From Roseivirga thermotolerans (GTDB lineage Bacteria; Bacteroidota; Bacteroidia; Cytophagales; Cyclobacteriaceae), in contig NZ_BNAG01000001.1 of assembly GCF_014653175.1 (NCBI RefSeq), positions 1 to 64,000 on the forward strand: a stretch of 64,000 bases of DNA. The letters run 5' to 3'. Positions 4,101 through 18,829 of this stretch are shown in pieces (the stretch's first letter is position 1; each line of letters starts with the position of its first letter). A program made the translations under genes and the position numbers. Under the pieces are notes generated by a model that was given only the letters and a program-made list of their open reading frames with translations, did not search any database and was not told where the DNA came from.

Positions 4101-7100
4101 GCCCGCAGCATCTGTGGCTACATCAGCAACTATATCTACTGTTACGTTTCCATGGTTATTACCATTAATGGTGGCCGTATAGGTTGTTCCCGAACCACTG
4201 AATGAACCCGAAGCAATGGTTCCATTGCTCAATTGAAGGTCTGATGCTTCAAAGCCTGTCACGCTTTCACTAAAGGTGATGGTCACATCAAACTGACCTA
4301 AGACAGGCCCCGTAGAGCTGCTGCTGATTGTGACTGTAGGAACAGCTGTATCCACTCTTACATCGGCCTGGCCAGTATAGGATCCATTCAGTGAGGCATT
4401 ATTACCGGCAGCATCAGCAATCACTCCTCCATTTAGCTCTATATTCCCCACAGTAACTCCATTGCTATCAGAGTCCCCGGCCAAAGTGGTATACCTAAAT
4501 GTTAGGGTGGTGGTACCCGAACCACTTAAATAAGTAGCTGTCTTGTTCTGGCCTCCCATGGCGATGTTGATTGAAGGAGTTCCTCCGGAAGTTTCAACCA
4601 CCACTGCTTCATCAAATTCTACGGTAATATCCATGTTCTGATTAAGGCCATAAGTTTTGCCTACAATGGAACCGGAAACTCTTGATGGTGCCGTTTCATC
4701 ATTCGTAATGCTGAGTTGTGTGGCAGCACTGTTGTTATTACCCGCTGCATCAATGGCCTTGTTGGCGGCAACATCTATAGTAACTGCACCATCGGCAGCC
4801 GGAGTTATGGTGGCCGTGTAAACGCTGGCACTCGAAGTTTGGAAGTTACTGGCTGCACCGTTACCGACAGTGATATCGCCCACTTCAAAACCGGTTACAT
4901 CTTCAGAGAAAGTAAAAGTGGCTGTAAACGCTCCGCTTTGTGGGTTATTGGCATCACTTGAGATCGTTACGGTAGGAGTTGTTTCATCATTGGTTAAACT
5001 CAATTGCGTGGCAGCAGTATTGTTATTACCGACAGCATCGGACGCTTTATCTGCTGCTACATTTATCGTTACCTCTCCATCGGCTGCCGGTGTTATGGTG
5101 GCTGTATACACGCTGGCACTGGTGGTCTGGAAATTACTGGCAGCTCCATTACCAACTGTGATATCGTCAATCGCAAAGCCTGTTACGTCTTCAGAGAAGG
5201 TAAAGGTTGCGGTGAATGCTCCACTTTGAGGATTGGATGCATTACTGCTAATAGTGACCGTTGGAGAAATATTATCGGCTTGCACAGTATAGCTTTCCTC
5301 GGTGCCAGGCGCCAAGTCGAGTAAGGCTTCTCCATCGGTTTGAGTACCCTCAAAGATATCTATCTTAAGATCGAAGGCACTATGGCTTCCGGAGTTGTAG
5401 CCTGTAAAAATCACGTGGCCATCTGCATAATTACCACTAGTAGAAGAGGAAAATGCATGGCTACCGCTACCCGAAAAATTCGTCAAAACTATACTGTAGG
5501 TCTCGCCTTGAGTAAGCTGTGGTGGATCAGACAATTGTATGGTTTGTCCTGCCGCATCGGTACTGGCCGTGAATTCTACGGTTTCAGTTTTAAGTACAGT
5601 TGAACCTCCTGCGCTCTCATCACCACTGTGAATTTCCAGCGTTACCGTTCCTGCAAAACCGTGTTGTCCTGCTTCTGGAAACAAAGTAAAGGCCGTTAGG
5701 AAATTGTTGGTGGTGGCTGTAAAAGTCTGCCCTAATTTTGACTGGTTGAGATAATCATTCACCCCAGTCTGCTGAATGGTAGCGACTCCATTACTATAGC
5801 CAATTCCTGTAATATTGTTGGTGCCTGCTGTTCCATCGATACCTTTCACCTTCAGGCTCAATGTGCCATCCACATTATTCAAATTGTTAACCGTTACATC
5901 GTAAATGCTGGCATCTACTGCGTTTACCGAAGAGACCGCTCCACCTGCTGTTGAGCTGAGGGTAAAATCATCGGCACTGACATTGCGAACATTTTCGCTG
6001 AAAGTGACCCTGAAAACAGGTTCGGTACCGGCATTGACATTCGCAGTACCAGGTGTTTGCCTGGCTATGGACTGAACGGTAATTGCTGCTGGCACCTCAT
6101 AAGCTGCACTTTCTACGGCATCTCCGGTATCAGTTCCATCCGAGGGGGTTACTTCGAAGCTAATGAACTTGCCACCATCGGCTAGAGTCAGGGTATAGGT
6201 GGTACCTGTTGCCCCAGCTATAGCTGCCTTATTGGTTCCGGATGCATCGTCTGCCCTATACCATTTAAAAGAAGACCCACTTTCGGTATCCGATTGAGGG
6301 TCGCTAAAATCATAGGTACCTGTCAATTGCTGACCTACGTTCAATGTCCCGGTAATGTCAACATTACTGGCTACCGGAGGATTAGAGATGGTGTATGTTT
6401 CATCAGTGGCAGGCAATGTGCTACCAAGTGCTTCACTCGGGCCAGAAGAAACAAAGAGTTTGAAATATAAATCTGCACTTGAAAGAGCGGATGCCTGATA
6501 AAGAATTCCGCCTGAATAACCAGCCCCTACCTGTGCCGAAAATCCTATACTGTTCGATGGAGCTCCCGGAATATTGACCCTCAGAGTATAGGTTGTTCCG
6601 GCCGTTACACTTGGTGGACTACTGAATGAATAGGTCACCTCAGTCTGTGCGGAAGTAATTTGTATGTTTTCAGTAGCTAACACTGTTCCTCCGTAACCTT
6701 CACCTGAGATTAGCTCTAATGTACCCGCTCCACTGTAACTATGACCTGAGCCTTTTTTTAATACCACATCTAACAAAAGACCAGAGTTATTGGGCCTGAA
6801 AGACTGACCAAAAACCGGTGAGTCCGTAATCTGGAGATCAGCCGTAGAGTTGGCGTCTAATTGGGATGGGATTTTAGCAATATTGTTGCTTCCTGATGCA
6901 TCTACCCCTTTCAGGTCAAGATTGATAGTTCCGATAGAGTTAGTAATGCCCGTGACTTTTATATCATAAACGCTTGAAGAAACAGCTGTAACTGAAGACA
7001 CTGTGCCATCTGCTGCGGCAGTTCCGCTCAAAACAAAATCATCAGTACTGACATAGCGCACATCGTCACTGAAGGTCACTCTGAAAGTCACTTCATCTTC

Positions 7101-8378
7101 GCTTGTGGTGGCATCCGATGGTGTTTGACGTACAATTGAGGACACTTTCACAATTTCGAAAACCGGACTACTCTCTACCGGAGTACCTGCCTCAGTACCA
7201 TCATTAGGGGTTACCTCAAAGCTGATGTATTTACCATCGTCATCGGCTACCAGGGTATATGTTTGGGCCGTGGCTCCTGCAATGGCCACTTTTCCGGTTC
7301 CTGAGGCATCATCGGACCTGTACCATTTGAATGTGGAACCACTTTCCGCATCACTGTCATCATCGGCATAGGTATAATTGCCTGTTAGTTGCTCCCCTAA
7401 AGCGAAAGTACCAGAAATACTTACATTGCTGGCTGTGGGAGCAGCATTTGGGACTACCGGAGCTTCCAGCACTATATTATTGAATATAGCTCCTTCAATA
7501 CCGGGGACGCCACCATCAAAAAAGCCAGCTGTTTTCTGTCGTATTCTTACTTCATCGACATTTTCAAAGATGCTTGAACTCAAGGTAATACCAGTATTTA
7601 CGCTTGACTTTGAAATAGATACTTCTTCGCTTACTACCTGGCTTCCATCTAAAAATCCCAGTATTTCTATATTGGCAATGTAATCATAGGTTTCTTGTAT
7701 ATCCAGACTGGCCAATTTAAACTCTGTTCCATTGTCGGTAGCAAATACAAACCATTGTCCATTCGCGCCATCCCCGGCATTTGATACATAGCCTAAACCA
7801 TCTACCGCAGCATTACCGGCAATAACACTTCCATGTGCAAAACCTCTATTGAGGCTTGAACTAATACCTGTTAATGAAGCAAAAACTGTTCCTGTACCAT
7901 CATCCGTTATTTTAAGGGTGACATCACCAAAGTCGACCGTAGATTTTTGAACTACTCCGTCCGTATCGTAACCACCAGAAAACTCATCGGTTGGAAAACT
8001 TAGGGTATTGGGTACGAATGCATCAACATCACCTGCCAGCGTTGGTGCAGGAGCTGTACCATTAGTCTCTACAGCCCAGCCTTCATTGGGAGGCTTAGGG
8101 GAGTCCATGGGGTTGCTGTAAATGAGTTGGTTGCTACTGTTTAGTATCTCCCAAGATGACCCGTTTTTACGAATGAGATAGGCGGAAGATGTAATGGGGT
8201 TGTCATCACAATCGAAGCTTGAATAATATGTAGAGCTCCCTGAACTCTGATAGATAATATTCGCATTACTATCTCCACCATTATTAACAGATACCATATT
8301 TTCTTGAGCCAACAAAAGCCCATAAAACATTACCAAACAAAATAGAATCAAACCTATCCTCAACATTCTAATAATCAT
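1..8378 (-). CDS. Giant modular secreted surface protein, partial (C-terminus beyond left edge)
   Basis: An open minus-strand frame runs from ATG 8378-8376 off the left edge, at least 2,790 codons; I checked the frame at six widely spaced points. A signal peptide (about residues 1-25, ending LLAQ) comes first. Visible modules in order: an unrecognised N-terminal region; repeats with the pattern WYRxDDxxGxxKxAIxGAT...SFEVTPxDG (near 7400-7160, 6360-6100, 3460-3170, 3150-2870 and 1640-1380); several bacterial Ig-like repeats ending ITPxxDGxVTxxVA (about 5270-3780); an IPT/TIG-like domain (2860-2640); a SPRY-like domain (about 2560-2030); a choice-of-anchor-D/ASH-like domain (about 2000-1690); and five MBG repeats (1130-1). 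The protein is presumably an outer-surface adhesin or matrix protein; a type IX sorting domain past the edge is expected but not seen. Its start overlaps the stop of the upstream paralogue, so the two are probably translationally coupled. Confidence 0.9.
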   Translation of the reverse strand, partial: MIIRMLRIGLILFCLVMFYGLLLAQENMVSVNNGGDSNANIIYQSSGSSTYYSSFDCDDNPITSSAYLIRKNGSSWEILNSSNQLIYSNPMDSPKPPNEGWAVETNGTAPAPTLAGDVDAFVPNTLSFPTDEFSGGYDTDGVVQKSTVDFGDVTLKITDDGTGTVFASLTGISSSLNRGFAHGSVIAGNAAVDGLGYVSNAGDGANGQWFVFATDNGTEFKLASLDIQETYDYIANIEILGFLDGSQVVSEEVSISKSSVNTGITLSSSIFENVDEVRIRQKTAGFFDGGVPGIEGAIFNNIVLEAPVVPNAAPTASNVSISGTFALGEQLTGNYTYADDDSDAESGSTFKWYRSDDASGTGKVAIAGATAQTYTLVADDDGKYISFEVTPNDGTEAGTPVESSPVFEIVKVSSIVRQTPSDATTSEDEVTFRVTFSDDVRYVSTDDFVLSGTAAADGTVSSVTAVSSSVYDIKVTGITNSIGTINLDLKGVDASGSNNIAKIPSQLDANSTADLQITDSPVFGQSFRPNNSGLLLDVVLKKGSGHSYSGAGTLELISGEGYGGTVLATENIQITSAQTEVTYSFSSPPSVTAGTTYTLRVNIPGAPSNSIGFSAQVGAGYSGGILYQASALSSADLYFKLFVSSGPSEALGSTLPATDETYTISNPPVASNVDITGTLNVGQQLTGTYDFSDPQSDTESGSSFKWYRADDASGTNKAAIAGATGTTYTLTLADGGKFISFEVTPSDGTDTGDAVESAAYEVPAAITVQSIARQTPGTANVNAGTEPVFRVTFSENVRNVSADDFTLSSTAGGAVSSVNAVDASIYDVTVNNLNNVDGTLSLKVKGIDGTAGTNNITGIGYSNGVATIQQTGVNDYLNQSKLGQTFTATTNNFLTAFTLFPEAGQHGFAGTVTLEIHSGDESAGGSTVLKTETVEFTASTDAAGQTIQLSDPPQLTQGETYSIVLTNFSGSGSHAFSSSTSGNYADGHVIFTGYNSGSHSAFDLKIDIFEGTQTDGEALLDLAPGTEESYTVQADNISPTVTISSNASNPQSGAFTATFTFSEDVTGFAIDDITVGNGAASNFQTTSASVYTATITPAADGEVTINVAADKASDAVGNNNTAATQLSLTNDETTPTVTISSDANNPQSGAFTATFTFSEDVTGFEVGDITVGNGAASNFQTSSASVYTATITPAADGAVTIDVAANKAIDAAGNNNSAATQLSITNDETAPSRVSGSIVGKTYGLNQNMDITVEFDEAVVVETSGGTPSINIAMGGQNKTATYLSGSGTTTLTFRYTTLAGDSDSNGVTVGNIELNGGVIADAAGNNASLNGSYTGQADVRVDTAVPTVTISSSSTGPVLGQFDVTITFSESVTGFEASDLQLSNGTIASGSFSGSGTTYTATINGNNHGNVTVDIVADVATDAAGNGNTSATQFSIFNDIVSPSLTITTSANDPINAAFTATFAFDEAVTGFTVDDISVGNGSASNFSGSGTTYTATITPDGDGEVTVDVAHSIAADAAGNFNNSATQLSLTYDATLPTLVSATKDSDTQITLTFSEVVEVAGAANSNFTVAAEDNKSYSVTSISDGTAGDNQLILSFDDLSTAILELVITYEATTGNISDLASNHLADDATGVTITLNQLAVASNVVFSGELQVGEMLSGTYNYTDPDNDAESGTTFKWYRSEDASGTGKTAIAGATAQTYTTTIDDTNKFLSFEVTPNDGKYAGVAVESSLQGPINNAPNATNVAISGTLEIGQVITGTYDFNDDENDAEVGSTFKWYRADDAGGTGKVAIAGATSNQYSLTVADANKYISFEVTPSDAYHAGSAVESALQLASYGTPVITAFNQARGIEGGTMTLTGTGFTGVTGVTFGGVAATSFNVVSDTELTAVVGAGNSGSIAVSNPDHSGSTDGFVFINTDTNIEDSEICQDCLPVTCDALEGGENCEIDYQFVSGGATATAGFDFQPRIFLTNMIIDPAYDYSMKIQIESLTIFPGSKGISLGLVRVKDNGEIFGDLAHDIGQQTNEYGYISTTGEKFSDGTLSAFGSGYAVGDVLLLEYKAADQSLNYSLQKSGSGSFDKQGGGAAFTGVESGSGDALAVALSLTCFGTCNLTIIEAEDSKSAGSTEITVAGETTDFGTVDPESGDATKTFAIKNEGTKVLNLTNDPKVTISGTDAADFTVALQPASSIDAADYTYFDVTFDPSTEGSKSATVTIANNDLDENPFTFEITGSSVIPNVAPTVTDVEITGDLIVGQTLTGTYTFSDGDNDPESGSTYQWYMADDANGNNKAAINGATSNTYALTSDHVGKYISFEVTPSDGQLFGTAQESSLQGPVSKIAQSITFNVLEAKTYGDEDFELTGTASSNLTVTYTSSNTNVATVSGSTVRIVGAGETTITASQAGNDSYSAATDVTQVLTVNKATLTATADDKSKTYGEENPTLSISYTGFVNGDDETAITQPTASTTADATSEVGTYDITLSGGSADNYSLIGNNGSLTVNKATLTATAEDKSKTYGEANPALSISYAGFVNGDDETAITQPTASTTADASSDAGTYAITLNGGAADNYTLVTVNGTLTIEKATLTATADDKSKTYGEANPAFTITYAGFVNGDDETAVATEPTASTTADETSNVGVYDIVLSGGSANNYSLSTVNGTLIIEKATLTATADDKSKTYGDENPALTISYTGFVNGDDETAITQPIASTTADASSDVGAYAISLSGGSADNYTLATVNGTLTIEKATLTATADHKSKTYGEENPALSISYAGFVNGDDETAITQPTASTTADAGS

Positions 8379-9451
8379 TAGGTTACATATTGAAATTCAC
8401 AGCTACCAAAGCAGGTTACGCTTAGCAACAAATAAAGAGATTCTCCATTTTCTGGAGTCGTAATGGTAAAGGCGGGGCCACTCCCTTGTGGAACAAATGC
8501 AGGAGTGCCCGCTTTCTGAACAGCATAACTAAGTTTATTATTAGGTGCGTCATATTCAATCAATATGGTATCTCCCACGCCATAAGCAGCACCAAACGCG
8601 GTCAGCGCATTATTACTAAACTTTTCTCCTGTTGTAGATAAAAAGCCATACTCATTGACATTGGCACCAATGTCATGTGCCATGTCGCTAGGCAAAGTCC
8701 CTAAACCTATAGAGATTCCTTTAGACCCAGGGAATATGGTTAGGCCATCAATTCGAATTTTAATACTATATACCTGATTGGGATCATTTAACTCAGGTCC
8801 TATAAAAATTCTAGGTGTAAAGTCGAAACCAGCCTTTGCCACTAAGGTACCATCACTCCATCTTATTGCCGTTTGACATTGAGTTCCGGTATATAAGGAA
8901 ACACAAGAACATACATCATCCGCTAGGCAAGTGCCTTTTCCATTACATGCATTTGCATCATCTGCGAGCGTACCAAAGCACCTTAAAGAATTACATTCAA
9001 TATTAAGAGCCCTAACAAAAAACCTAAAAGGGCCATTGGAATCATTACTTTCAATAATCACTTCTGCAAAGGCCAATCCGAAACTGTGACTTGTATAATT
9101 GATCGTAAGATTAGCCGATTCATTAGGTGCCAAAGTTCCTTCAGCATTAGTGGTTATCTCAAAAAAGTTCCTGTCGTCATCGAGTCTAATTTCCGAAATC
9201 ACCAGATCAGAATTACCGGTATTAGTAAGCACAAAGGTTCTTTCAATCTGATTTTCATTCACTGAAACCGTCTTATTGTAGGTAATACCGAAATCGGTAA
9301 AGTTGGCTTGGCTTACAGTTCTAGAACCAGATGCAATAGATGCATTATTTCCTGCCAACTCTAGCTGAGGCTGAAACTCTTCTGTAAATGGAATTAGGAA
9401 TACCGTGAAAACAAGGAGTTTATGTAGGATTTTCTTTTGGTTGGAAGACAT
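8378..9451 (-). CDS. Secreted ASH-EGF-SPRY-like protein (paralogue 2)
   Basis: 357 residues. An N-terminal hydrophobic stretch (about 9-22) looks like a signal peptide or anchor. Residues about 30-152 resemble the choice-of-anchor-D/ASH fold (TDFG near 52, RTFVLTNTG at 71-79, IESNDSNGPF near 133-142). A cysteine-rich segment follows (153-192; CNGKGTC, CSC), like an EGF module. Residues about 200-345 look SPRY-like (YGFLSTTG near 268, GDTILIEYD near 293-301, NNKLSYAV). It is 50-60% similar by eye to the 355-residue protein upstream, and its SPRY part recurs in the giant protein downstream. No C-terminal sorting domain is visible. Its stop TAA shares one base with the ATG of the giant gene. A 9-bp direct-repeat element lies 61 bp upstream of its start. 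Confidence 0.85.
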   Translation of the reverse strand: MSSNQKKILHKLLVFTVFLIPFTEEFQPQLELAGNNASIASGSRTVSQANFTDFGITYNKTVSVNENQIERTFVLTNTGNSDLVISEIRLDDDRNFFEITTNAEGTLAPNESANLTINYTSHSFGLAFAEVIIESNDSNGPFRFFVRALNIECNSLRCFGTLADDANACNGKGTCLADDVCSCVSLYTGTQCQTAIRWSDGTLVAKAGFDFTPRIFIGPELNDPNQVYSIKIRIDGLTIFPGSKGISIGLGTLPSDMAHDIGANVNEYGFLSTTGEKFSNNALTAFGAAYGVGDTILIEYDAPNNKLSYAVQKAGTPAFVPQGSGPAFTITTPENGESLYLLLSVTCFGSCEFQYVT

Positions 9452-9511: not shown

Positions 9512-9541
9512 GTGCGTGAACAGCAGATTTTTGGGCGTGAA
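9512..9541 (-). promoter_or_regulatory. Paired 9-bp direct repeats, 21-bp period (putative LytTR site)
   Basis: GTGCGTGAA (9512-9520) and GGGCGTGAA (9533-9541), read on the plus strand, are separated by 12 bp. In the sense of the downstream gene the nearer copy ends 61 bp before the ATG at 9451. Nine-bp imperfect direct repeats with 12-bp spacers are the published geometry for LytTR-domain regulators such as AgrA; assignment to the LytTR regulator at 13675-14409 is inference. Confidence 0.6.
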
Positions 9542-9561
9542 TGTGGTTCATTGGTGGTTCA
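9523..9561. repeat. 39-bp duplicated upstream block, copy 1
   Basis: Identical over 39 bp to 10875-10913. Both copies begin 72-73 bp upstream of the start codon of a SPRY/ASH paralogue, so the block was either duplicated with the gene or kept for a function. It contains the distal 9-bp element and the start of a T-rich spacer. Confidence 0.85.
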
Positions 9562-9581
9562 CGGTTTATTGTTCAAAGTTT

Positions 9582-9637
9582 GAAAGCTGGAGCTGCGAGC
9601 GGGGAGCATGAAGACGCAAGCAAGAGGCTGGCGGGGT
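9582..9637. repeat. Degenerate heptanucleotide repeat, array 1
   Basis: Eight consecutive 7-bp units keep register (gaaagct, ggagctg, cgagcgg, ggagcat, gaagacg, caagcaa, gaggctg, gcggggt). The consensus is close to GGAAGNN/GGAGCNG. The first units match array 2. Confidence 0.65.
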
Positions 9638-9734
9638 CAAGAGCCGTTACTGCACCGCCAATACAAGGGAGTTGTGTTCGAAGTTTAAGATTTAAGGCTT
9701 AAAATAAAGACTCGCATCAATTACCTGTCATTGG

Positions 9735-10802
9735 TCAGTCTACTAATTCAAGCTCGCATTCACCAAAACAAGTCAGGCTCAGCATTAAATGAAGAGATTT
9801 CCCTGGCCTGGCTATTAGCCCGGTAAATGCTTCTCCTTGTGGAAGAAACTCATGAGTACCAGCCTTTTTTACAGCAAAACTCAGCTTGTTTTGAGGAAGG
9901 TCATATATAATGAGCACAACATCTCCTTCACCGTAGCCAATGCCGTAATCACTATGTACTCCGTTACTATATAATCGCCCTGAAGATAGATAACCATACT
10001 CTCTGTCTATCTGACCAATATCATGAGCTAAATCTCCTGGCGGAGAAGAACCAACACCAATAGACACTTCAGTATCTTGGAACAAAGACAACTTATTTAT
10101 GGCGACTTTAATTCGATAGACTTCATTCGGATCAGTTAGTTCTGGCCCTATTGTTATTCTCGGAGAAAAATCATGACCAGCCTGCACCAGCGTATTACCA
10201 TCGTTCCAGCGTATTGGTGTTTGACAGTTTGTACCCGCATATAACGGAGCACAAGAGCACGTATTTTGGCCAATGCAAGTTCCAAAAGAATTACACACGG
10301 TTGGGTCACTAGGTAATTTTCCAAAACATTTGGTCGAATTACACTCTACATTTTTGGCTCTAATAAAGAATCGGAAAGATCCGTTGGGATCGTTACTTTC
10401 AATAACTACTTCTGCGAAAGCCAATCCAAATGCCCTACTATTAAAATTAATGACCAGCTCGGCCGATTCATTGGGAGATAGTGTTCCCACTGCGCTAGTT
10501 GTAATGTCAAAAAAGTTTTGTTCATCTTCCAGCCTTATTTCTGAAATTACAAGATTGCTGCTTCCACCATTGACGAGCACAAACGTCCTACTTAACTGCG
10601 TATAATCTACGGAGGCCGTTCTGTTGAATACAGTCCCAAAATCGGTATAGTTATCGGCACTAAAAGAGGAGTTGTTAGCCGCAATAGTCAGGAAGTTACC
10701 ATAGACTTCTAACCGCCCATCCACTTTGGTTTCAACCAATGGAATCAGCAGGGTTATTAAAAACAGTAGTTTTGGAAGGTGTGTTCTTCTACTGATACGC
10801 AT
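9735..10802 (-). CDS. Secreted ASH-EGF-SPRY-like protein (paralogue 1)
   Basis: 355 residues with the same layout as the next gene. A signal-like hydrophobic segment (LLFLITLLIPL, about 12-22) is followed by an ASH/choice-of-anchor-D-like domain (about 30-150; TDFGTVFNRT, RTFVLVNGG, IESNDPNGSF), a cysteine-rich EGF-like module (about 153-192; CSCAPLYAGTNC) and a SPRY-like domain (about 200-340; YGYLSSG, GDVVLIIYD, NKLSFAV), ending in LTCFGECELE. The start ATG 10802-10800 is supported by the spacing to the upstream repeat elements (62 bp), nearly the same as in the paralogue. It is probably exported; function unknown, and glycan or protein binding is a guess from SPRY folds elsewhere. A GCCCAA/TTGGGC inverted repeat (10834-10851) sits between the elements and the start. 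Confidence 0.85.
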   Translation of the reverse strand: MRISRRTHLPKLLFLITLLIPLVETKVDGRLEVYGNFLTIAANNSSFSADNYTDFGTVFNRTASVDYTQLSRTFVLVNGGSSNLVISEIRLEDEQNFFDITTSAVGTLSPNESAELVINFNSRAFGLAFAEVVIESNDPNGSFRFFIRAKNVECNSTKCFGKLPSDPTVCNSFGTCIGQNTCSCAPLYAGTNCQTPIRWNDGNTLVQAGHDFSPRITIGPELTDPNEVYRIKVAINKLSLFQDTEVSIGVGSSPPGDLAHDIGQIDREYGYLSSGRLYSNGVHSDYGIGYGEGDVVLIIYDLPQNKLSFAVKKAGTHEFLPQGEAFTGLIARPGKSLHLMLSLTCFGECELELVD

Positions 10803-10863
10803 AATGTTTTAAAATTTATTGTTTAATAAAAATGCCCAAGTGTTGTTGGGCGTATTCAGAATT

Positions 10864-10893
10864 GTGCGCGAGTGGCAGATTTTTGGGCGTGAA
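10864..10893 (-). promoter_or_regulatory. Paired 9-bp direct repeats, 21-bp period (putative LytTR site)
   Basis: GTGCGCGAG (10864-10872) and GGGCGTGAA (10885-10893) on the plus strand, again with 12 bp between them. The nearer copy lies 62 bp before the ATG at 10802, almost the same distance and the same orientation as at the paralogue. Confidence 0.6.
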
Positions 10894-10913
10894 TGTGGTT
10901 CATTGGTGGTTCA
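10875..10913. repeat. 39-bp duplicated upstream block, copy 2
   Basis: Identical over 39 bp to 9523-9561. It starts 73 bp upstream of the paralogue 1 start codon. Confidence 0.85.
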
Positions 10914-10922
10914 TGGTCTATT

Positions 10923-10985
10923 GAAAGCTGGAGCGGGAAGACGGAAGACGGAAGCATGGAGTTGGGAGCTGGGAGCGGGCTGCTG
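10923..10985. repeat. Degenerate heptanucleotide repeat, array 2
   Basis: Nine 7-bp units in perfect register: gaaagct, ggagcgg, gaagacg, gaagacg, gaagcat, ggagttg, ggagctg, ggagcgg, gctgctg. It directly follows the 39-bp block, as array 1 does. Confidence 0.75.
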
Positions 10986-11062
10986 ATAAGCAAGACCAAT
11001 TGCAGCGAAGAGCCTCCAATAAAGTTGATGTGGAATGTGTGGGGCTAGGGGTGGAATGAGAC

Positions 11063-11146
11063 GGAAGCGAGAAGACAGAAGACAGAAGACGGAAGACGGG
11101 ACTATGAAGCTGGAAGCCAGGAGTTGGAAGCCAGGAGCCGGAAACA
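11063..11146. repeat. Degenerate heptanucleotide repeat, array 3
   Basis: Twelve 7-bp units in register, including three exact agaagac copies (11070-11090), then ggaagac, gggacta, tgaagct, ggaagcc, aggagtt, ggaagcc, aggagcc, ggaaaca. It resembles the short tandemly repeated sequences known from cyanobacterial intergenic regions; no function can be read from it. Confidence 0.8.
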
Positions 11147-11268
11147 ACCAGCAGTCACCAATAGTTGGAAAATGAAAACTCCAGAGATACGATTCCTCTC
11201 AAAACGGAGACAAATTCTCAATAGCCTAAATGGCTCCTAAGCTTTATTTTTAAACATCACTTGAAGAC

Positions 11269-12120
11269 CTAATTCGACCGAGAAAAGCACCCCACAAGTT
11301 CTACATCTGGAGATTCAAAAAGCTGTCGCGGAGTAATAATGGTTTCTTCAATTGGTGTGCGCTTGATCTCCGGAACTGACCCCGGAAGCTGTATTTCAGG
11401 TTGAACGGAACTTGCCATGAGTTGATCATCCAAAATAAGCTCGGGAGATTCAGTTAATGGCTCTACATGAATGGGATAACCAGCATTTTTTAAACACATA
11501 GCTACCAAGGTAGAACAGGCAATCATATCTTTTTGGTGCCCTTCACTGTATTCGTTAATGAGTAAAGTAATCGCCACAATGACCGACTCAGCAATAAACC
11601 TATTTGGAATTTTATCCAGAATAATCTTTCGGATTTCTCCATCCTTATAACGCATGGAGCAAATCACTGCCAACATCCAGGCTGTTGAATAGGAATATTT
11701 AATTGAACCATCATAGTAAAAATCGCTAATGGCTTTGTTGATTGTGTCAGTATCCAAATCACCTTTCCTTCGGTATACATAGAGTTTAGCCACCGAGTCT
11801 GCATTCAATGTCGATTCCAAAGTAGCTGCACCTATGCCATGACTTCCGGCCTGAACAACACAATCCATCACTTTTGGAAAGGTATTCTTGCCAAAATTAA
11901 TATCTACATGCCCCCAAATAGCTGCATGATATATATTTCTGTAATTCTGCCCTTCTTTACCAGGATCAAACCAAGGAATAAGGTAAACCAGCAAATAGAA
12001 TGCGGCTTTCTCTGCACCGTCCTCCTCCCAGGTTTTGAAAAATTTATCTAAACTAAAGTCGAAATTCTCAAAAATGAGAATGTCCCCTATTTGTAAATCA
12101 CTTTTACTCATTGGTTGCAT
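11269..12120 (-). CDS. Permuted papain-fold (NlpC/P60 YiiX/YebB-like) enzyme
   Basis: 283 residues; an in-frame ATG at 12111 (residue 4) is an equal alternative start. The order GDILIF (12-17), YHAAIW with the candidate catalytic His65, VMDCVVQAGSHGIG (84-97), and ACSTLVAMCL with the candidate nucleophile Cys202 fits the circularly permuted papain-like group (His before Cys), whose members are amidases, peptidases or acyltransferases. No signal peptide is seen. The tail (about 225-283) is Pro/Glu-rich and probably disordered. It is the third gene of an operon, 21 bp after the PI-PLC gene, and shares its likely promoter at 13597-13647. The substrate is unknown; a role on lipids or cell-wall peptides together with the PI-PLC is inference. 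Confidence 0.7.
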   Translation of the reverse strand: MQPMSKSDLQIGDILIFENFDFSLDKFFKTWEEDGAEKAAFYLLVYLIPWFDPGKEGQNYRNIYHAAIWGHVDINFGKNTFPKVMDCVVQAGSHGIGAATLESTLNADSVAKLYVYRRKGDLDTDTINKAISDFYYDGSIKYSYSTAWMLAVICSMRYKDGEIRKIILDKIPNRFIAESVIVAITLLINEYSEGHQKDMIACSTLVAMCLKNAGYPIHVEPLTESPELILDDQLMASSVQPEIQLPGSVPEIKRTPIEETIITPRQLFESPDVELVGCFSRSN

Positions 12121-12141
12121 AGCATATTGATTTATAGTGGC

Positions 12142-13269
12142 CTAATTCATTGCAATAATCTTATCAAGCAGCCCGTCATCCGAAACAAAATCTAAAATAA
12201 TCGTACCTACTCTCTTTTTTCCCCATTCAGGCAAACGCTCTTTTAGCCGATTGTTCATCCCTCCTTTGCCAATAGCAGTGGCCCTGGGGTTATTTAAATC
12301 TGGGGCACCTGGAGAGGTACCACTGGTAAAATTCCAGTACCAAACATTAGTACTCCCTTTGGCTGCCTCATTCAACAGTTTTTCAATATTATTCCATTTT
12401 TCATCATATCCATTGAAATACGCCACTTTGTAACAATCCTGAACCCTAATCTTGTTAGGTGCCGTTTCTGAAGGAGCATCATCATTCAACGAAAAGATGC
12501 TATCCCCTTTCCATCCATAGTAGGCTGGTATACCCAATTTACCCTCGAACCTACGAACAAGCACAATCTTGCCCCTAACTTCTTGCAGATTGGGGATAGT
12601 GTCTGCCACGTACCAACGGTTACCTGCCCCATGCATGTAGTGTTCAAGAGTGACTTCAAAACTGCGCGTGTTGCCTTCATCTTTACAGGCATCGATTTCC
12701 CAAAATTTAGGATCGTCCTTACACTCTCTTTTAACCCCCATTACAATGGTCTCACTCGGATTTTCTACCAGGAAATCTATACACTGCTGCACAACATCTC
12801 CGAAATTGATCTTTTGATATACAGATCCATGATGTATGGTGAACACATTGTTGAGATGTCTGCATCGGATATCCAGAAACCTCACGCCCAAAATGAGCTG
12901 AGCAGCTATCGACAACTCCTGGCATTGGGTCATAAAACCTCCGAAAAGAGCACATGAGTCATGGGTGCCGGGCATATTAATTTCCGACAATTTCCTGCTT
13001 CCGTTAATCCTGGACATCCAATTGGCGTTTGGGAAGCTAGCTATTGCAACAGTTTGATGCTCCTTACAAGCACCAGCCAATTTCACTCCGTTAAATGAAT
13101 AATTAATAGCTAGGTGTTTGGTATGACCAGGGCTCGGGTCGCCAAACAACTTATTGGAAGCTGCTATCCTTGTCTCACCCTTATCAACCAACTGTTGAAC
13201 CTTTTCAGTTACCACCAAAGCTGCATTTTTTGTCCCGTAAGCGGCCGATATAATTTTCACTTTGCTCAT
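12142..13269 (-). CDS. PI-PLC X-domain protein with N-terminal DnaJC11-C-like (DUF3395-like) domain
   Basis: 375 residues, no signal peptide. Residues about 4-76 (KIISAAYG, VTEKVQQLV, LFGDPSPGHTK, CKEHQTVAI) resemble the C-terminal domain of DNAJC11 and repeat the whole content of the small gene upstream. Residues about 85-370 form a phosphatidylinositol-specific phospholipase C X-domain: MPGTHDS with His103/Asp104, RFLDIRCR with Asp133 and Arg135, and IHHGS with His146/147, matching the two catalytic histidines and the Asp/Arg of the Bacillus enzyme. The C-terminus (GTIILDFV) closes the TIM barrel. Bacterial PI-PLCs are usually secreted and single-domain; this fusion and the lack of a leader suggest intracellular action or an unusual export route. 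It lies 18 bp after the small gene and 21 bp before the papain-fold gene. Confidence 0.85.
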   Translation of the reverse strand: MSKVKIISAAYGTKNAALVVTEKVQQLVDKGETRIAASNKLFGDPSPGHTKHLAINYSFNGVKLAGACKEHQTVAIASFPNANWMSRINGSRKLSEINMPGTHDSCALFGGFMTQCQELSIAAQLILGVRFLDIRCRHLNNVFTIHHGSVYQKINFGDVVQQCIDFLVENPSETIVMGVKRECKDDPKFWEIDACKDEGNTRSFEVTLEHYMHGAGNRWYVADTIPNLQEVRGKIVLVRRFEGKLGIPAYYGWKGDSIFSLNDDAPSETAPNKIRVQDCYKVAYFNGYDEKWNNIEKLLNEAAKGSTNVWYWNFTSGTSPGAPDLNNPRATAIGKGGMNNRLKERLPEWGKKRVGTIILDFVSDDGLLDKIIAMN

Positions 13270-13287
13270 ATCTGTGATTGAAAGGTG

Positions 13288-13530
13288 TCAGGAAAAATTT
13301 ACACGTTGACCTTCTTTACAGGCCACCGCTTTCGTTTGTCCGTTGACCGTATAAACAGCTCCAAAATGTTTACTGTGACCTGGGCAGGGGTCATTAAACA
13401 TATGGTTATCAACTTCCAAACTATCCCCAGAACGGGTAATCAGCTTTTGAACCTTTGAGGTTACATCAAAGGTTTTGGTAGCTTCGCCATAGGCACCATA
13501 GCAAGCACCAATTATACTAATTGAATTCAT
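13288..13530 (-). CDS. Stand-alone DnaJC11-C-like (DUF3395-like) small protein
   Basis: 80 residues from the ATG at 13530; a longer frame from 13575 adds 15 residues. I prefer 13530 because it aligns with the start of the PI-PLC protein (both begin M..xxII.A.YG) and puts the upstream repeat elements 67 bp away, as at the other two promoters. The protein is the same domain as residues 1-76 of the PI-PLC: IIGACYG, DVTSKVQKLI, MFNDPCPGHSKHF, YTVNGQTKAVACKEGQRVNF. The role of this domain is not established; a membrane or lipid association is plausible from DNAJC11. It is the first gene of the operon. Confidence 0.75.
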   Translation of the reverse strand: MNSISIIGACYGAYGEATKTFDVTSKVQKLITRSGDSLEVDNHMFNDPCPGHSKHFGAVYTVNGQTKAVACKEGQRVNFS

Positions 13531-13596
13531 ATTGTGTGTGTTTACTGCTTTGCACAGTTTAAAATTGAAAAACACCCGGATACTGAATGGTTAAAG

Positions 13597-13647
13597 GTGC
13601 ACCAACTCGCTAGAAATGTGCGCCAACTACTTGATTATGTGCGCCAA
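13597..13647 (-). promoter_or_regulatory. Three tandem 9-bp direct repeats, 21-bp period (putative LytTR site)
   Basis: GTGCACCAA (13597-13605), GTGCGCCAA (13618-13626) and GTGCGCCAA (13639-13647), each 21 bp from the next, lie between the stop of the LytTR regulator and the start of the small-protein/PI-PLC/papain operon. The plus-strand consensus over all seven copies in the window is G[TG]GC[GA][TC][GC]A[AG]. The spacing puts the repeats on one face of the helix. Confidence 0.65.
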
Positions 13648-13674: not shown

Positions 13675-14409
13675 TTAGAGAGTTTGCAAGCGGTGTATCA
13701 GGTTGTCTTTGTAGGATTTACCCAAGGGCACCTCTTCTCCATTTATTGCAATGGTAAACTGAGAAAGGTCTATATCTTCTACCTTTTTAATGTTTACGAT
13801 GTGGGAACGATGGGTTTGTACAAACTCTTGAGGATTAAGCTTATCGGCCAACTCTTTGAGTGACTGACGAATGACAAACTTCTTGTTTTCTGTATGTAGT
13901 ATGCAATACTTGTCTTCTACCGAAACCCATAGTATGTCTGTAATCATAAGTTTAACCAGCTTATTTCTCTCTTTTACAAAAAAGAAGTCTTTTGCCAACA
14001 CCACATGCCTGTTGTCTTCAAAGACATCTTCTTCGTGAGAAGTGGTATAAGCTCTAAGGGTAGCCAATTCCATACTTCTTTCGAGCTGCACCGGGTCAAA
14101 AGGCTTAATAAGGTAAGCGCTGGGCACGGTTTCTTTGGCCTTATTGAAGGTATCTTTATCGTCATAGGAAGTAATAAAAATAACCGGGGTGGGTCTCTCG
14201 GCCTGAAAAATTCGAGCTAAGTCTATCCCCGACATCTCTCCTTCAATATTTATATCTAACAAAACCAGATCCGGCTGCTTGCTCCTAAAAAATTTGAGCG
14301 CTTTCTGACCTTCTTCTGCAATGCCAATGGTCTGATACCCCAACTCATCCACAAACATCTCGAGAGTGTCGGCATAATTGGGTTCATCTTCTACGATGAG
14401 TATATTCAT
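13675..14409 (-). CDS. LytTR-family response regulator
   Basis: 244 residues. The receiver domain (1-120) has the acidic pair Glu7/Asp8, the phospho-acceptor Asp in LLDINIEG (about 53), FITSYDD and the Lys of YLIKPFD (about 105). The LytTR DNA-binding domain (about 140-240) shows ILWVSVEDKYCILHTENKK, QSLKELADKL, FVQTHRSHIVN and KSYKDNLI. No kinase domain is attached. It lies 70 bp downstream of the last of three orphan-type histidine kinases, and the LytTR-like repeats at 13597-13647 immediately follow its stop. I infer that it receives phosphate from the kinases and activates the downstream operon and secreted paralogues. Family call is firm; targets are inference. Confidence 0.93.
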   Translation of the reverse strand: MNILIVEDEPNYADTLEMFVDELGYQTIGIAEEGQKALKFFRSKQPDLVLLDINIEGEMSGIDLARIFQAERPTPVIFITSYDDKDTFNKAKETVPSAYLIKPFDPVQLERSMELATLRAYTTSHEEDVFEDNRHVVLAKDFFFVKERNKLVKLMITDILWVSVEDKYCILHTENKKFVIRQSLKELADKLNPQEFVQTHRSHIVNIKKVEDIDLSQFTIAINGEEVPLGKSYKDNLIHRLQTL

Positions 14410-14479: not shown

Positions 14480-16726
14480 TTAGGCCAGTCTTCTATGAAT
14501 TGCGGCCGGCATTACCGGAAAGGTCAAGACCACTCTGGTCCCCGAGCCTTCTTTACTTTCTATTTTTACTGAACCTTTATTCAGATGCATAAATTCAACA
14601 CAAAGCTTTAGTCCCAGGCCAAAACCTTTCTCTCCTTTAGTTCCCAGTTGGCTGGATGACTCCCCTCTCAATACCCGATCCATTTGATGTGAAGGCATTC
14701 CCAACCCATTGTCAGAGACCATGATATCTACCTTATTTAAAGTAGTCGCGCTTGAAAATACCACCTTGCCTCTTTCCGGGCTAAACTTAATGGCATTGCT
14801 AAGCACATTGCGTAAAACGGTGCAAGAGGTGTTTACGTCCACATAGACATTTACATCCTCTACCTCATTGACAACATCTATTGATTTGCTTTGAGCCAGT
14901 GATTGGAAAAGAGCTATATTTTCATCGATTAGCTGTTTAATGCTGACCTGCCCAGGAGTATACGGAATACCATCCGTTTGTGACGCTGCCCAGCTAAGCA
15001 GGTTATTGAGTAAGTGATTTAACTGGTCTATGGACTGATCAATTTTACCACCTATTTCGAGCAGTTTTTCCTGCTTATCTTTTTTTATAAAATACTCCAA
15101 CTTACGGCCAATACCTTGCAGGGCTACCATAGGACTTCTAAGGTCGTGAGCAATTATAGAAAAGAACTTATCTTTTGTTTTGTTAAGGGACTCCAACTCT
15201 GCCTTTTGGCTTTTGGCCAATTGATAAGCTGCTGTGAGCTCATTCTTGCGTTTTCTTAGCAAGAGAAACATGGAAGAAATTAGCAAAACCATGGCTACTA
15301 AAACCAACGAAGCAAGCGTAATTCGCCAGTTTCGTTGCTTTTCCGATATTAAAGCCCTGTTGGTTTCTGCTATAATCTTTTCTTTTTCCAGCGCGTCAAA
15401 TTTGGCTTGTTGCTCCAATAGCTGATAGTCTTTTTGCTTTTTAAGTAAGTTGCGCTCTAGAATATTCTGCTGGGTTTGGGCGTTCAGGGCTTGTTCAAAA
15501 TCACCAATACGTTTGTAGTAATCAACGGCCAATTCATAGGCAAGCATTTCTGTTTCGGGCATTGGGTATTCCTGCACTATAGCTAGAACTCTCAGCAACT
15601 GATCTTCAGCTAAATTTACGTTGCCCTTAGCCAATTCTAACCTATGCTTTAACAAGGTCCCTTGAGCCTGTGCCTCCAAAAACATTTGTTCTGAAGCCAT
15701 TTCCAAACCTCTTTCCAATGCCTTCTCTCCATCGTTTAACAACCCTTGGGTAATAAAACAATCGGCTAATTGAATCCACAAAGAAGTTTGATCGTATTCT
15801 AATCCTAGTTTGCCAATTAGTTCAAGAGACTTTTCCGTGTAGAGCTTTGCCTTAGATGACTGTCCGCTTTTATTATAACTCCTACCAAGGTTACTGAACG
15901 CAAAAGCAAGCCGCAACTCATTACCTAATTTCAGGCATAGGGCAATTTCTTCCTGATAGAAAGTTTCTGCCCTATCATAGTCTCCAATATCCCGGTATCC
16001 TCCCGCCAAACTATGAAGCGATTGAAGCTCCTTTTCTTTGTCATTAATGGCTCTTGAAAGGTTCAGAGCCGTTAAATGATTTTGGATTACTCGGTCATGA
16101 GCATTTATTCTATTATAAACTGATGCTTCTTTATTCAGGCTTGACCAAATTCTGGCTGAATCGCCAATACTTTCTGAATAAATTTGAGCCTTCTCAAAAT
16201 GATAAATGGCCGAATCCGGACTCACAAAATTGATGAAGTAGTCACCAAGGGAGAGATGCACATCTGCCAGGTTTTCAAGGCCAAAATCGAGGCTATTCCT
16301 TTGGGCCAATAGCTTCTCTAGCTTACGCGCAACCTGCCCGGCCTTTTCTGGCTCAAAAAATTCTGAGTGTACCTGAAGTTGCAACCGGTAAAGAGCTATT
16401 CGCTGGTTTTGAGAAAGCGGCAAGCTTCGAATTTCCGACTCCAACGAATCTAAAAGAGACCTTGCATTTGCCGGATTGAGCAGTATTAATGAAGGAGCAT
16501 ATTCTGTAGCAAAACTAAGTCTTTTGACACCTCTAGCTTCCAAAGCATACCGACTCCAAAACTCCTCCCAACCGGCAGTGGTAGAAGACTGTTGTGCGAT
16601 ACAATTTTTGCAACAGACTATGATGAACACACCAAACACCCATTGCCTCAATACTTTGCAGACATATTGATTATTTAAATTATCGAAAACCCGCACAACT
16701 AGTAACTCCAAATCAAAGATAAGCAT
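14480..16726 (-). CDS. TPR-sensor membrane histidine kinase (1 of 3)
   Basis: 748 residues. A hydrophobic leader (about 31-44, WVFGVFIIVCC, then CIAQ) suggests export of the N-terminal half; a TTG at 16651 would give a more standard signal peptide. TPR repeats fill about 100-430 (for example YHFEKAQIYSESIGD, AFSNLGRSYNKSGQ). One membrane segment (about 482-502, LASLVLVAMVLLISSMFLLL) leads to a coiled linker, then HisKA with HDLRSPM, an N-box NVLSNAIKFS, G1 DNGLGM and G2 GFGLGLKL. There is no receiver. The periplasmic-TPR layout is common in Bacteroidota sensors, and the ligand cannot be read. The DHp helix is almost the same as in the two neighbouring kinases. Confidence 0.9.
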   Translation of the reverse strand: MLIFDLELLVVRVFDNLNNQYVCKVLRQWVFGVFIIVCCKNCIAQQSSTTAGWEEFWSRYALEARGVKRLSFATEYAPSLILLNPANARSLLDSLESEIRSLPLSQNQRIALYRLQLQVHSEFFEPEKAGQVARKLEKLLAQRNSLDFGLENLADVHLSLGDYFINFVSPDSAIYHFEKAQIYSESIGDSARIWSSLNKEASVYNRINAHDRVIQNHLTALNLSRAINDKEKELQSLHSLAGGYRDIGDYDRAETFYQEEIALCLKLGNELRLAFAFSNLGRSYNKSGQSSKAKLYTEKSLELIGKLGLEYDQTSLWIQLADCFITQGLLNDGEKALERGLEMASEQMFLEAQAQGTLLKHRLELAKGNVNLAEDQLLRVLAIVQEYPMPETEMLAYELAVDYYKRIGDFEQALNAQTQQNILERNLLKKQKDYQLLEQQAKFDALEKEKIIAETNRALISEKQRNWRITLASLVLVAMVLLISSMFLLLRKRKNELTAAYQLAKSQKAELESLNKTKDKFFSIIAHDLRSPMVALQGIGRKLEYFIKKDKQEKLLEIGGKIDQSIDQLNHLLNNLLSWAASQTDGIPYTPGQVSIKQLIDENIALFQSLAQSKSIDVVNEVEDVNVYVDVNTSCTVLRNVLSNAIKFSPERGKVVFSSATTLNKVDIMVSDNGLGMPSHQMDRVLRGESSSQLGTKGEKGFGLGLKLCVEFMHLNKGSVKIESKEGSGTRVVLTFPVMPAAIHRRLA

Positions 16727-16759
16727 TATGGCAATACTTGGTCTTCAACACAATATTCA

Positions 16760-18763
16760 TTAGGCACTATCCAAACGTCTCTCCACTCCTTTGGCCTGAG
16801 ATGGAAAACCAAGAACAAAGCATGTACCTTTGCCTGGCTCGCTGGTCACACTAATGGTTCCCTTATTTTGGTCTACAAATTCTTTAGTAAGCTTTAGCCC
16901 TAGCCCAAACCCTCTTTCACCCATTGACCCAAATGTACTGAAGGCACTATTGCCAAATAATGATTGAAGTTTAGCCTTTTCCATTCCCACACCTTCATCT
17001 TTTATGGTGAGCTTAACACCCGTGGTTTGTTCTTCCGCAAAAACTGTTATTGTTCCCCCCTCCAAGCTGAACTTTATAGCATTACTCAGGAGGTTCCTCA
17101 CAATAGCAGATATTGTATTTCTATCCGCAAAGATCAATGCCTCTTTTTTCGAATGCTCAACCGTTATGCCTTTCGATTCCATTAAGCCCATATACAATTC
17201 GATATTTTCATTAACTACTTCCACTAAATCGATCCGCTCAGGCTTATAGGGCACCCCTTCTGTTTGAGAAGCAGCCCAATGCAGCAGGTTATTGAGTAGA
17301 TGGTTCAACTGGTCTATTGATCGATCGATTTTCCCACCCATCTCGAGTATCTTCTCTTGCTTTTCTTTACGAATGAAATATTCCAGCTTTTGGCCTACAC
17401 CCTGAAGGGCAATCATGGGGCTGCGCAAATCGTGAGCAATTATGGAAAAGAACTTGTCTTTGCTGGCATTTAGTTCTTCCAGCTTGTGGTTCTGAAGACT
17501 GATCTTACGGTTGTTTTTTCTAATCTGTATAAACAACAGAAGTACTATAACTAAAAATACAGCCACTACAATCAGTCCAATGAGGTAGAGTTTTTGCCTT
17601 TCTTTCTCTGCGGCCTGTTTGAGCAAAAGTCCCTCTATTTCTCGCTCCTTCTGGGCGGTTTTATATTGTGTTTCCAGCTCAACCACCTGCTTGGCTTGCT
17701 CTTCTTCGAACAACGTTTCCAGATAGTTTATATACAGGTTATAGTAGTGAGTGGCTTTCACATACTTGCCCATGTCTTGATAACTGTCGGCAATGATTTT
17801 GGTAGCATCAACTTTATAAGTGAGAATGTTCATTTCTTCGGCCAGAGCCAATGCTTCCAGGGCTCGGTCTACAGCCTCAGAGTACCTACCGAGGTCCCAG
17901 TCGAGCCGAGCAATGTTGTTAAGCGTGTTAATGCGGGTACTTTCATCGGGAGCCATTTGCAAAGCCCGCTCATACAAGTCGAGGCACTTTTCATATTCTT
18001 TAGTAGCAAAATACAGCTCTCCGAGATCGTTGAAATTACTGGCGGCTACTCCTTCCAAATTAGCGGCCTGGCAAATGTCTAGTGATTGCAGCAGCAATTT
18101 TTCGGCTATCTGATGCTCTTCCTTCTGGTAATAGACCACTCCGAGCCGGTTGAGCGTAGCAGCAACTCCTAGCGTATCCTGAGCGGCTTCACAAATCTCC
18201 AGTGCCTTTTCCAGGTTTTCCAAGGCCGGGTTAAGGTTTTCTGCTGCCCGGTATATTTCTCCCAACACCCTAAAGTATCGACCATGAAATTTAGGTTCGA
18301 GGGTGAGTTCCGGAGTATTTGCCGTGCTCAAAAATAAATCCACAGCAACAGAGTACTCGCCCAAGTAGTAATGTCCTACTCCTTTATAAAAGTTACGCTT
18401 AGCATAAGATAAACCGCTTGCCGCCTGCTCACCGCCTTTCCAGTTTTCCAGAACCACTATGGAAGAATCGTATTTACCCAGAGAAAATAAACTGGCTCCG
18501 AGCCACAACCTTGCTTCATTTTCCAGAGCACCCCTGCCCAACTCACGGGCATTTTCAATCAGAATTTCGCTTACCGATCTGGCTTGTTGTGGATCCGCAT
18601 CCACCATTAGTTTTACTCTGGCCAGCTCAAGTTGCAACAACTCCACAGTGGTGGCTTGTCTGGCTCTGTGCAGGGCGTCCTGGCCGCTCAGGGAAAAAGA
18701 GAGACACAAGAGGAGAGTTAAAATCACTCCTTTGCACATTTCATAAGTAAAACATTTTAGCAT
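16760..18763 (-). CDS. TPR-sensor membrane histidine kinase (2 of 3)
   Basis: 667 residues; ATG 18739 (residue 9) would give a cleaner signal peptide (MCKGVILTLLLCLSFSLSGQ). TPR repeats span about 75-340 (ALENLEKALEICEAAQD, AVDRALEALALAEEM), followed by a membrane segment (about 393-413, LYLIGLIVVAVFLVIVLLLF), HisKA with HDLRSPM, N-box NLLSNAIKFS, G1 DEGVGM and G2 GFGLGLKL. It has the same layout as kinase 1 and starts 33 bp before it in transcription order, so they may be one transcript. The sensor halves differ much more than the kinase halves, as expected for duplicated sensors that kept one partner. Confidence 0.9.
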   Translation of the reverse strand: MLKCFTYEMCKGVILTLLLCLSFSLSGQDALHRARQATTVELLQLELARVKLMVDADPQQARSVSEILIENARELGRGALENEARLWLGASLFSLGKYDSSIVVLENWKGGEQAASGLSYAKRNFYKGVGHYYLGEYSVAVDLFLSTANTPELTLEPKFHGRYFRVLGEIYRAAENLNPALENLEKALEICEAAQDTLGVAATLNRLGVVYYQKEEHQIAEKLLLQSLDICQAANLEGVAASNFNDLGELYFATKEYEKCLDLYERALQMAPDESTRINTLNNIARLDWDLGRYSEAVDRALEALALAEEMNILTYKVDATKIIADSYQDMGKYVKATHYYNLYINYLETLFEEEQAKQVVELETQYKTAQKEREIEGLLLKQAAEKERQKLYLIGLIVVAVFLVIVLLLFIQIRKNNRKISLQNHKLEELNASKDKFFSIIAHDLRSPMIALQGVGQKLEYFIRKEKQEKILEMGGKIDRSIDQLNHLLNNLLHWAASQTEGVPYKPERIDLVEVVNENIELYMGLMESKGITVEHSKKEALIFADRNTISAIVRNLLSNAIKFSLEGGTITVFAEEQTTGVKLTIKDEGVGMEKAKLQSLFGNSAFSTFGSMGERGFGLGLKLTKEFVDQNKGTISVTSEPGKGTCFVLGFPSQAKGVERRLDSA

Positions 18764-18829
18764 TTTGGAATCCGAAGATTTCAGAGAGCTGTATTCAAAA
18801 AAATAGAATTAACGCTAACAGCCAACACA

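Follow-up and report, generated by a model that had tools for sequence, protein, structure and literature searches.

The 64-kb window analysed here (positions 1 to 64,000 of contig NZ_BNAG01000001.1 of the marine bacterium Roseivirga thermotolerans) contains seven copies of a 9-bp box, repeated in a single orientation with a period of exactly 21 bp as two pairs and one triple, ahead of a cluster of surface protein genes. Comparison with related genomes makes it very likely that the boxes are the operator at which a LytTR response regulator, encoded next to them (13675-14409, minus strand), acts, most likely as an activator of the surface gene cluster. The switch would very probably be of an established type, and its operator word is newly recognised.

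Box repeats in the window

The seven boxes were located on the plus strand, the gene sense of both the boxes and their target genes being the minus strand. One pair (9512-9520 and 9533-9541) precedes the gene of a HYDIN-type protein (protein 2), 60 bp before its ATG at 9451, and, by gene overlap, also the giant surface protein gene, whose ATG (8378) shares one base with the stop codon of protein 2. A second pair (10864-10872 and 10885-10893) is found 61 bp before the ATG at 10802 of the gene for protein 1, a SPRY/HYDIN-type protein, and the triple (13597-13605, 13618-13626 and 13639-13647) is located 66 bp before the ATG at 13530 of the first of the DnaJ-C11-C-like, PI-PLC and C92 genes. These gaps are measured, in gene sense, from the end of the start-nearest box to the ATG; that at 13530 was taken after the genome of R. 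spongicola (G013), the mechanical open reading frame (ORF) beginning at a GTG at 13575. The number, grouping, period and orientation of the boxes are those described in the first-pass annotation.

With 12-bp spacers and a 21-bp period, the repeats have the arrangement of a LytTR operator, that is, two or three direct repeats of about 9 bp, 11-13 bp apart. According to the parts of the literature consulted, here and below, published LytTR operators consist of 9-bp direct repeats, mostly 12 bp apart and immediately upstream of the -35 element, with a sequence that is poorly conserved from regulator to regulator (PMC6193735), in agreement with the earlier remark that this geometry is known for the family.

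A strict regular expression for the box has 15 matches across the window, 11 of them on the plus and 4 on the minus strand. For spacings of 10-60 bp, these occurrences form four pairs at 21 bp and one at 42 bp, the latter being the outer boxes of the triple. In 300 dinucleotide shuffles, no strict pair at 21 bp appeared and the best count at any single spacing was 1; since the pattern was derived from these sites, the shuffles indicate that the pairing is not due to chance and are no independent test of the motif. When three mismatches are allowed the excess is weak, with 11 matches against 6.8 expected and 9 of 100 shuffles reaching 11.

Over 64 bp, the 9512 and 10864 sites share 89% identity, and both lie upstream of paralogous genes, from which we conclude, on sequence identity, that they are one promoter copied along with its gene. 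These two sites are therefore not independent, and the window holds two independent events, the copied promoter and the triple. The earlier claim of three marked promoters stands as to the boxes, which are present at all three, and not as to three separate occurrences. The copying, together with runs of a GAAGACG 7-bp repeat that adjoin the 10864 site (10923-11150), would be compatible with the repeats having no regulatory meaning and being left over from promoter duplication or part of a dispersed repeat. The GAAGACG runs mimic periods of 14, 21 and 28 bp, so they have to be filtered out in period scans. A dispersed repeat was rejected, since a genome-wide search with an 86-bp query matched nothing beyond these copies except fragments at E>=1.1.

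Conservation of the boxes and distance to the start codon

The pair, written in gene sense, consists of TTCACGCMC, a 12-bp spacer and TTCACGCAC, followed by ATT. The GCAC of the proximal box is invariant across 22 aligned pairs, which were picked by box score with genome G008 excluded for its spacer. Mean pairwise identity was computed for nine surface-gene promoters of nine genomes, two promoters with 11-bp spacers being excluded. Conservation peaks in the proximal box (0.93), the values being 0.77 for the distal box and 0.60 for the spacer. In the flanks, identity is 0.31 (far) and 0.46 upstream, 0.80 for the three bases after the box and 0.47-0.59 beyond them. The boxes thus outlast their spacers and flanks in divergent species and moreover precede unrelated genes, which argues against remnants without regulatory meaning and leaves that explanation with hardly any probability.

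Across 14 loci, 24 pairs are spaced at 21 bp, 2 at 20, 3 at 42 and 2 at 56, with no pairs at other spacings within 10-60 bp. Regarding the word itself, TTCNNGCA fits many of the proximal boxes and the distal box is often TTCACGCCC, while the boxes of the PI-PLC genes, TTGGCGCAC and TTGGTGCAC, fit only TTNNNGCA.

In all 11 surface-gene promoters of the genus with the 21-bp period, the proximal box lies 58-61 bp from the ATG, and in G008 this distance is 59 bp. For two of these 11 (G011 and the first gene of G016), the ATG used is 36-39 bases downstream of the first ATG of the ORF, the first ATGs giving gaps of 22-23 bp instead. The distance is less uniform before C92, DnaJ-C11-C-like or regulator genes, where it ranges from 53 to 93 bp (about 54 bp for the C92 gene of G015), with 182 bp in G018. 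The near-constant distance bears on the direction of control. One LytTR protein whose three-repeat word is similar, CoxC, acts as a repressor at a site that overlaps the -35 element (PMC11347149), and the boxes could likewise be the operator of the neighbouring regulator acting in repression. However, a gap of 58-61 bp accommodates a whole promoter downstream of the boxes, and most LytTR regulators bind upstream of the -35 element and activate (PMC11347149). Repression is thus a rather unlikely option here, and activation is preferred.

Association of the boxes with the regulator

The genus sample comprised 19 genomes, that of R. thermotolerans included, G009 and G017 being 84% and 80% complete; the species among the named records include R. 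spongicola (G013), R. pacifica, R. ehrenbergii, R. seohaensis and R. echinicomitans. A close orthologue of the regulator (E<=1e-60) is present in 11 of the 19, again counting R. thermotolerans, and paired boxes adjoin it in every one of them. When named genomes were scanned for the regulator, at least 489 loci emerged, and the best 80 of these included 10 with orthologues at 53-88% identity. Eight of these belong to the genus genomes already used, and the other two are distant orthologues from metagenome-assembled genomes of Owenweeksia (L076, 57% identity) and Cryomorphaceae (L077, 53%). Both carry a strong pair downstream of the regulator, between it and the next ORF of at least 90 residues, 52 and 61 bp before the ATG, respectively. 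These pairs, neither of which was used to define the motif, score 26.5 and 27.2, within the training range of 20.9-29.4. Setting the threshold at 20.8, just under the lowest training score, no pair reaches it in the other 70 of the best 80 loci (1.05 Mb, mostly from other phyla). Loss of the boxes in relatives that keep the genes, raised in the first-pass annotation as a contrary outcome, was looked for, and all 11 genus genomes with the regulator and both outside orthologues keep them.

Moreover, when nine genes of the R. thermotolerans locus were compared with 13 loci, the regulator alone occurred in all 13, with the kinases in 12 and the C92 gene in 11. The L077 locus shares solely the regulator with the others (>60 bits). 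The proposal that the boxes are a LytTR operator is therefore supported in substance by sequence comparison, through the orthologue-linked boxes and the L076 and L077 pairs.

The pair was also searched for elsewhere. A sequence-only model built from the 22 pairs was run on the 19 genus genomes, scoring 150 first-look candidates per genome out of 425-1579. Matches at E<0.1 were obtained in 10 of the 11 genomes with the regulator (G008 being missed) and in none of the 8 without it, although the training loci came from regulator-bearing genomes; the best match among the latter 8 has an E of 0.385 (G007). In R. thermotolerans itself (4.2 Mb, 150 of 967 candidates scored), the three matches at E<=10 all fall in this locus. 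A two-box weight matrix allowing spacings of 20-22 bp gave 4 pairs in the window. It gave none in 241 kb of other stretches of the same genome, in 92 kb surrounding further LytTR genes in G013 and G004, or in 343 kb of sequence from genera elsewhere in the family. Equally good pairs at unrelated sites, the other contrary outcome that had been raised, were thus absent from the sequence covered. Eight weak matches of the model (E 0.37-3.0) were considered, of which seven were dropped because they lie inside ORFs; the eighth is a new site (G010:C171) about 60 bp before the ATG of a giant gene, in a locus split over contigs.

Two further sites lie far from the regulator. One, at G018:C5:313971, is about 61 bp before the ATG of a 379-residue protein (L052:302-1441), and the other, at G013:C28:767540, is about 59 bp before the ATG of a 333-residue protein (L053:1589-2590). 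These orphan pairs are possible distant targets. Neither protein has a Pfam match, that of L052 has no match in the Protein Data Bank (PDB), and a comparison of the L053 protein with the giant protein of L077 found no link.

The first-pass annotation had singled out this regulator as the only LytTR regulator present. This is correct for the window, which has one LytTR gene, and incorrect for the whole genome, which has 23, so its being the sole one in the window is, taken alone, weak evidence. The 22 further LytTR genes leave room for another protein, encoded elsewhere, to bind the boxes, with the adjacency of the regulator being coincidental. Nonetheless, no family other than the regulator is common to the 13 loci, which include two from outside the genus. 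The genus genomes without it have no model match at E<0.1, and both the geometry and the word fit LytTR operators. In addition, no such pair occurs near 21 of the 22 other LytTR genes of the genome (regions L166-L185). Binding by another protein is accordingly improbable.

Several observations weigh against the assignment of the boxes to the adjacent regulator or make it less tidy. Within the genus, the regulator, the C92 gene and the boxes are gained or lost together as one cassette, and their co-occurrence by itself cannot tell the regulator from the cassette. The pairs before C92 are weak in G004 and G006 (score 15.4), the pair of G018 is the one lying 182 bp ahead of the C92 start, and G016 has no pair before C92, its two pairs preceding two SPRY/HYDIN genes. 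G008 has a single site, before the giant gene and with an 11-bp spacer. Beyond the genus, the L077 regulator (L077:1541-2269) has two in-frame stops in its receiver domain next to an intact pair; the copy may be dead, or the stops may come from an assembly error. The G013 orphan site scores under the 20.8 threshold. Only 16 of the 22 training pairs were recovered near full length by the model, the rest being fragments, hidden by overlaps or missing; this limited recall and the incompleteness of G009 and G017 make the absences in the model scan softer than they seem. Finally, the box is unlike the classical LytTR consensus.

Proposed mechanism and comparison with known LytTR systems

In the mechanism that we favour, the two LytTR domains of a regulator dimer would occupy two 9-bp direct repeats 12 bp apart. 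The 21-bp period corresponds to two helical turns, and both domains would then lie on the same face of the DNA, immediately upstream of the promoters. The regulator would be phosphorylated by at least one of the adjoining histidine kinases, and we infer that the phosphorylated form binds the boxes and most likely activates, rather than represses, the DnaJ-C11-C-like/PI-PLC/C92 genes, the gene for protein 1, and those for protein 2 and the giant protein jointly. In this way, one regulator gains a predicted operator and a small predicted regulon, made up of giant surface proteins and proteins encoded nearby.

In gene sense, the box TTCACGCAC agrees with the operator word of RcoM1 from Paraburkholderia xenovorans, a triplet of TTCNNGCA with 12-13 bp spacing, and the box TTGGCGCAC fits that of CoxC from Afipia carboxidovorans, three TTNNNGCN repeats at intervals of 18-21 bp (PMC11347149). 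However, these two proteins are from Proteobacteria, where CoxC senses CO as a one-component system and RcoM1 is a CO regulator (the latter as cited in PMC11347149), whereas here a receiver-LytTR response regulator with histidine kinases adjoins surface protein genes in a member of the Bacteroidota. The likeness of the words was noticed after the motif had been fixed and is thus a fair outside check, yet one drawn from papers on LytTR proteins. To our knowledge, RcoM and CoxC are not close relatives of this regulator.

A likeness in geometry is found with HdrR/BrsR of Streptococcus mutans, where HdrR-type 9-bp repeats are mostly 12 bp apart and just upstream of the -35 element (PMC6193735). 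HdrR/BrsR and AgrA of Staphylococcus aureus differ from the present system in their targets. The LytTR domain of AgrA is weakly similar to that of the regulator (E 0.012; best PDB match 3d6w, E 1.1e-5). The box words of AgrA and HdrR/BrsR are also different. Regarding the LytTR regulatory systems (LRS), these pair a LytTR protein with a membrane inhibitor and are autoregulated through repeats before their own operon (PMC6193735). Here there is a receiver domain and three histidine kinases instead, no strong pair precedes the kinase-regulator genes in the window, and pairs directly before the regulator gene are found only in G010 and G011. In the open-licence papers, as far as their consulted parts go, we found none on a LytTR site in Bacteroidota or Roseivirga, nor a description for these bacteria of the word, the regulon or the family-wide period discussed below.

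Genes of the locus

The genes and boxes follow one another on the minus strand as three histidine kinases, regulator, triple, DnaJ-C11-C-like protein, PI-PLC, C92, pair, protein 1, pair, protein 2 and giant protein. The regulator, proposed here to bind the boxes, has the receiver (PF00072, 1.1e-21, 77.6 bits) and the LytTR DNA-binding domain (PF04397, 3e-22, 79.1 bits) that define a LytTR response regulator, both over the cut-off. Upstream of it, the kinases (14480-20476; 748, 667 and 548 residues) each have HisKA and HATPase_c domains, with TPR in two and 7TMR-DISM in one. The number of kinase genes beside the regulator varies among relatives, the regulator and the boxes being retained.

After the triple, the first gene (13288-13530, minus strand) encodes an 80-residue protein with a weak DnaJ-C11-C-like match (E 4.9e-4, below the curated cut-off). 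It is followed by a PI-PLC X-domain protein (12142-13269, minus strand; PF00388, 2.5e-11) and a Peptidase_C92-like (YaeF/YiiX) protein (11269-12120, minus strand; E 2.2e-5, just under the cut-off). The PI-PLC operon of the first-pass annotation does contain PI-PLC, and it also includes this C92-like gene. The DnaJ-C11-C-like domain is common to the 80-residue protein and the N-terminus of PI-PLC, with 40% identity. A full-length PI-PLC orthologue occurs only in G013 among the 18 other genus genomes, and PI-PLC was rejected as a conserved partner of the boxes, the family matches in G027 and G030 (44-45%) having no pair within 1.5 kb; relatives of PI-PLC on plasmids gave no lead.

Proteins 1 (9735-10802) and 2 (8378-9451), both encoded on the minus strand and secreted-looking by eye, are 55% identical. 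They had been described as two SPRY/ASH proteins: the HYDIN-type Ig domain is confirmed in both, the SPRY-like match of protein 1 is just under the cut-off, and protein 2 has no Pfam SPRY match at E<=0.001. The giant surface protein gene (3-8378, minus strand) begins at its first ATG and extends past the window edge. One segment of it (window 2031-2597) shares 39% identity with the C-terminal half of protein 1.

In the relatives, the locus takes several forms. G013 keeps the triple, with three boxes and the same period, and lacks the separate SPRY genes, a pair being located 60 bp before a giant gene of 3605 residues directly. In G018, G006, G004, G005 and G015 the order is kinase(s), regulator, pair, C92, pair and giant gene, and in G010 and G011 the first pair precedes the regulator gene. 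The 11 genus genomes that have the regulator are also those with the C92 gene, which is split across two contigs in G010, and in G008 and G010 the spacer ahead of the giant gene is 11 bp long. Among the giant proteins, those lying whole within the stretches examined (G008, G011, G013, G004 and G006) have 2769-4085 residues; such complete proteins carry a C-terminal RKKV-type tail, which we take to be a type 9 secretion sorting tail.

A 21-bp period near other LytTR genes

Repeats were also sought in intergenic DNA near other LytTR genes, with a rule of 9 bp and at least 8 of 9 matches and with short-period repeats filtered out. As the filter was set after a first look, the period probabilities are indicative only. 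In 20 regions (L166-L185, 14.5 kb intergenic) around 21 of the 22 other LytTR genes of R. thermotolerans, a spacing of 21 bp occurs in 12 regions, against a mean of 1.13 (maximum 4) at other spacings; it occurs in 3 of 20 random regions of the same genome (14.9 kb intergenic). Spacings of 17 and 34 bp are also raised in L166-L185 (10 matches in 4 regions and 9 matches in 2 regions), perhaps reflecting a 17-bp tandem.

LytTR regulators are plentiful in these bacteria, and each of the 41 family genomes searched has LytTR genes. The family set took a single region from 35 of its 40 other genera (30.5 kb of intergenic DNA, two regions clipped by contig ends). Here, spacing 21 occurs in 12 of the 35, against a mean of 3.16 (maximum 8), and in 20 control regions from the family (11.6 kb) it occurs in 2, against a mean of 1.00. 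The enrichment is modest in G013 and G004 taken together, with 5 of 28 regions against a mean of 1.36 (maximum 4; P 0.013). This last set used 1.5-kb flanks and had loci for 30 of 44 LytTR matches, two orthologue loci being dropped.

The repeated words differ between loci and from the word of this locus. Pairs of TTNNNGCA near other LytTR genes amount to seven scattered matches. A second LytTR locus has TTCAGAACA-like pairs at 21 bp both in R. thermotolerans (L179:3905 and 4110) and in G013 (L221:2422 and 2709).

Each word would be bound by the regulator encoded beside it. These comparisons lean, by a little, towards Roseivirga and its family having private LytTR operators, in which each regulator has its own 9-bp word, repeated at exactly 21 bp near its gene, with TTCACGCAC being one such channel. 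This suggests a rule for predicting other LytTR operators, namely 9-bp words repeated at exactly 21 bp near the gene. If this is true, the operators of dozens of uncharacterised regulators would be readable from a single genome by the period alone.

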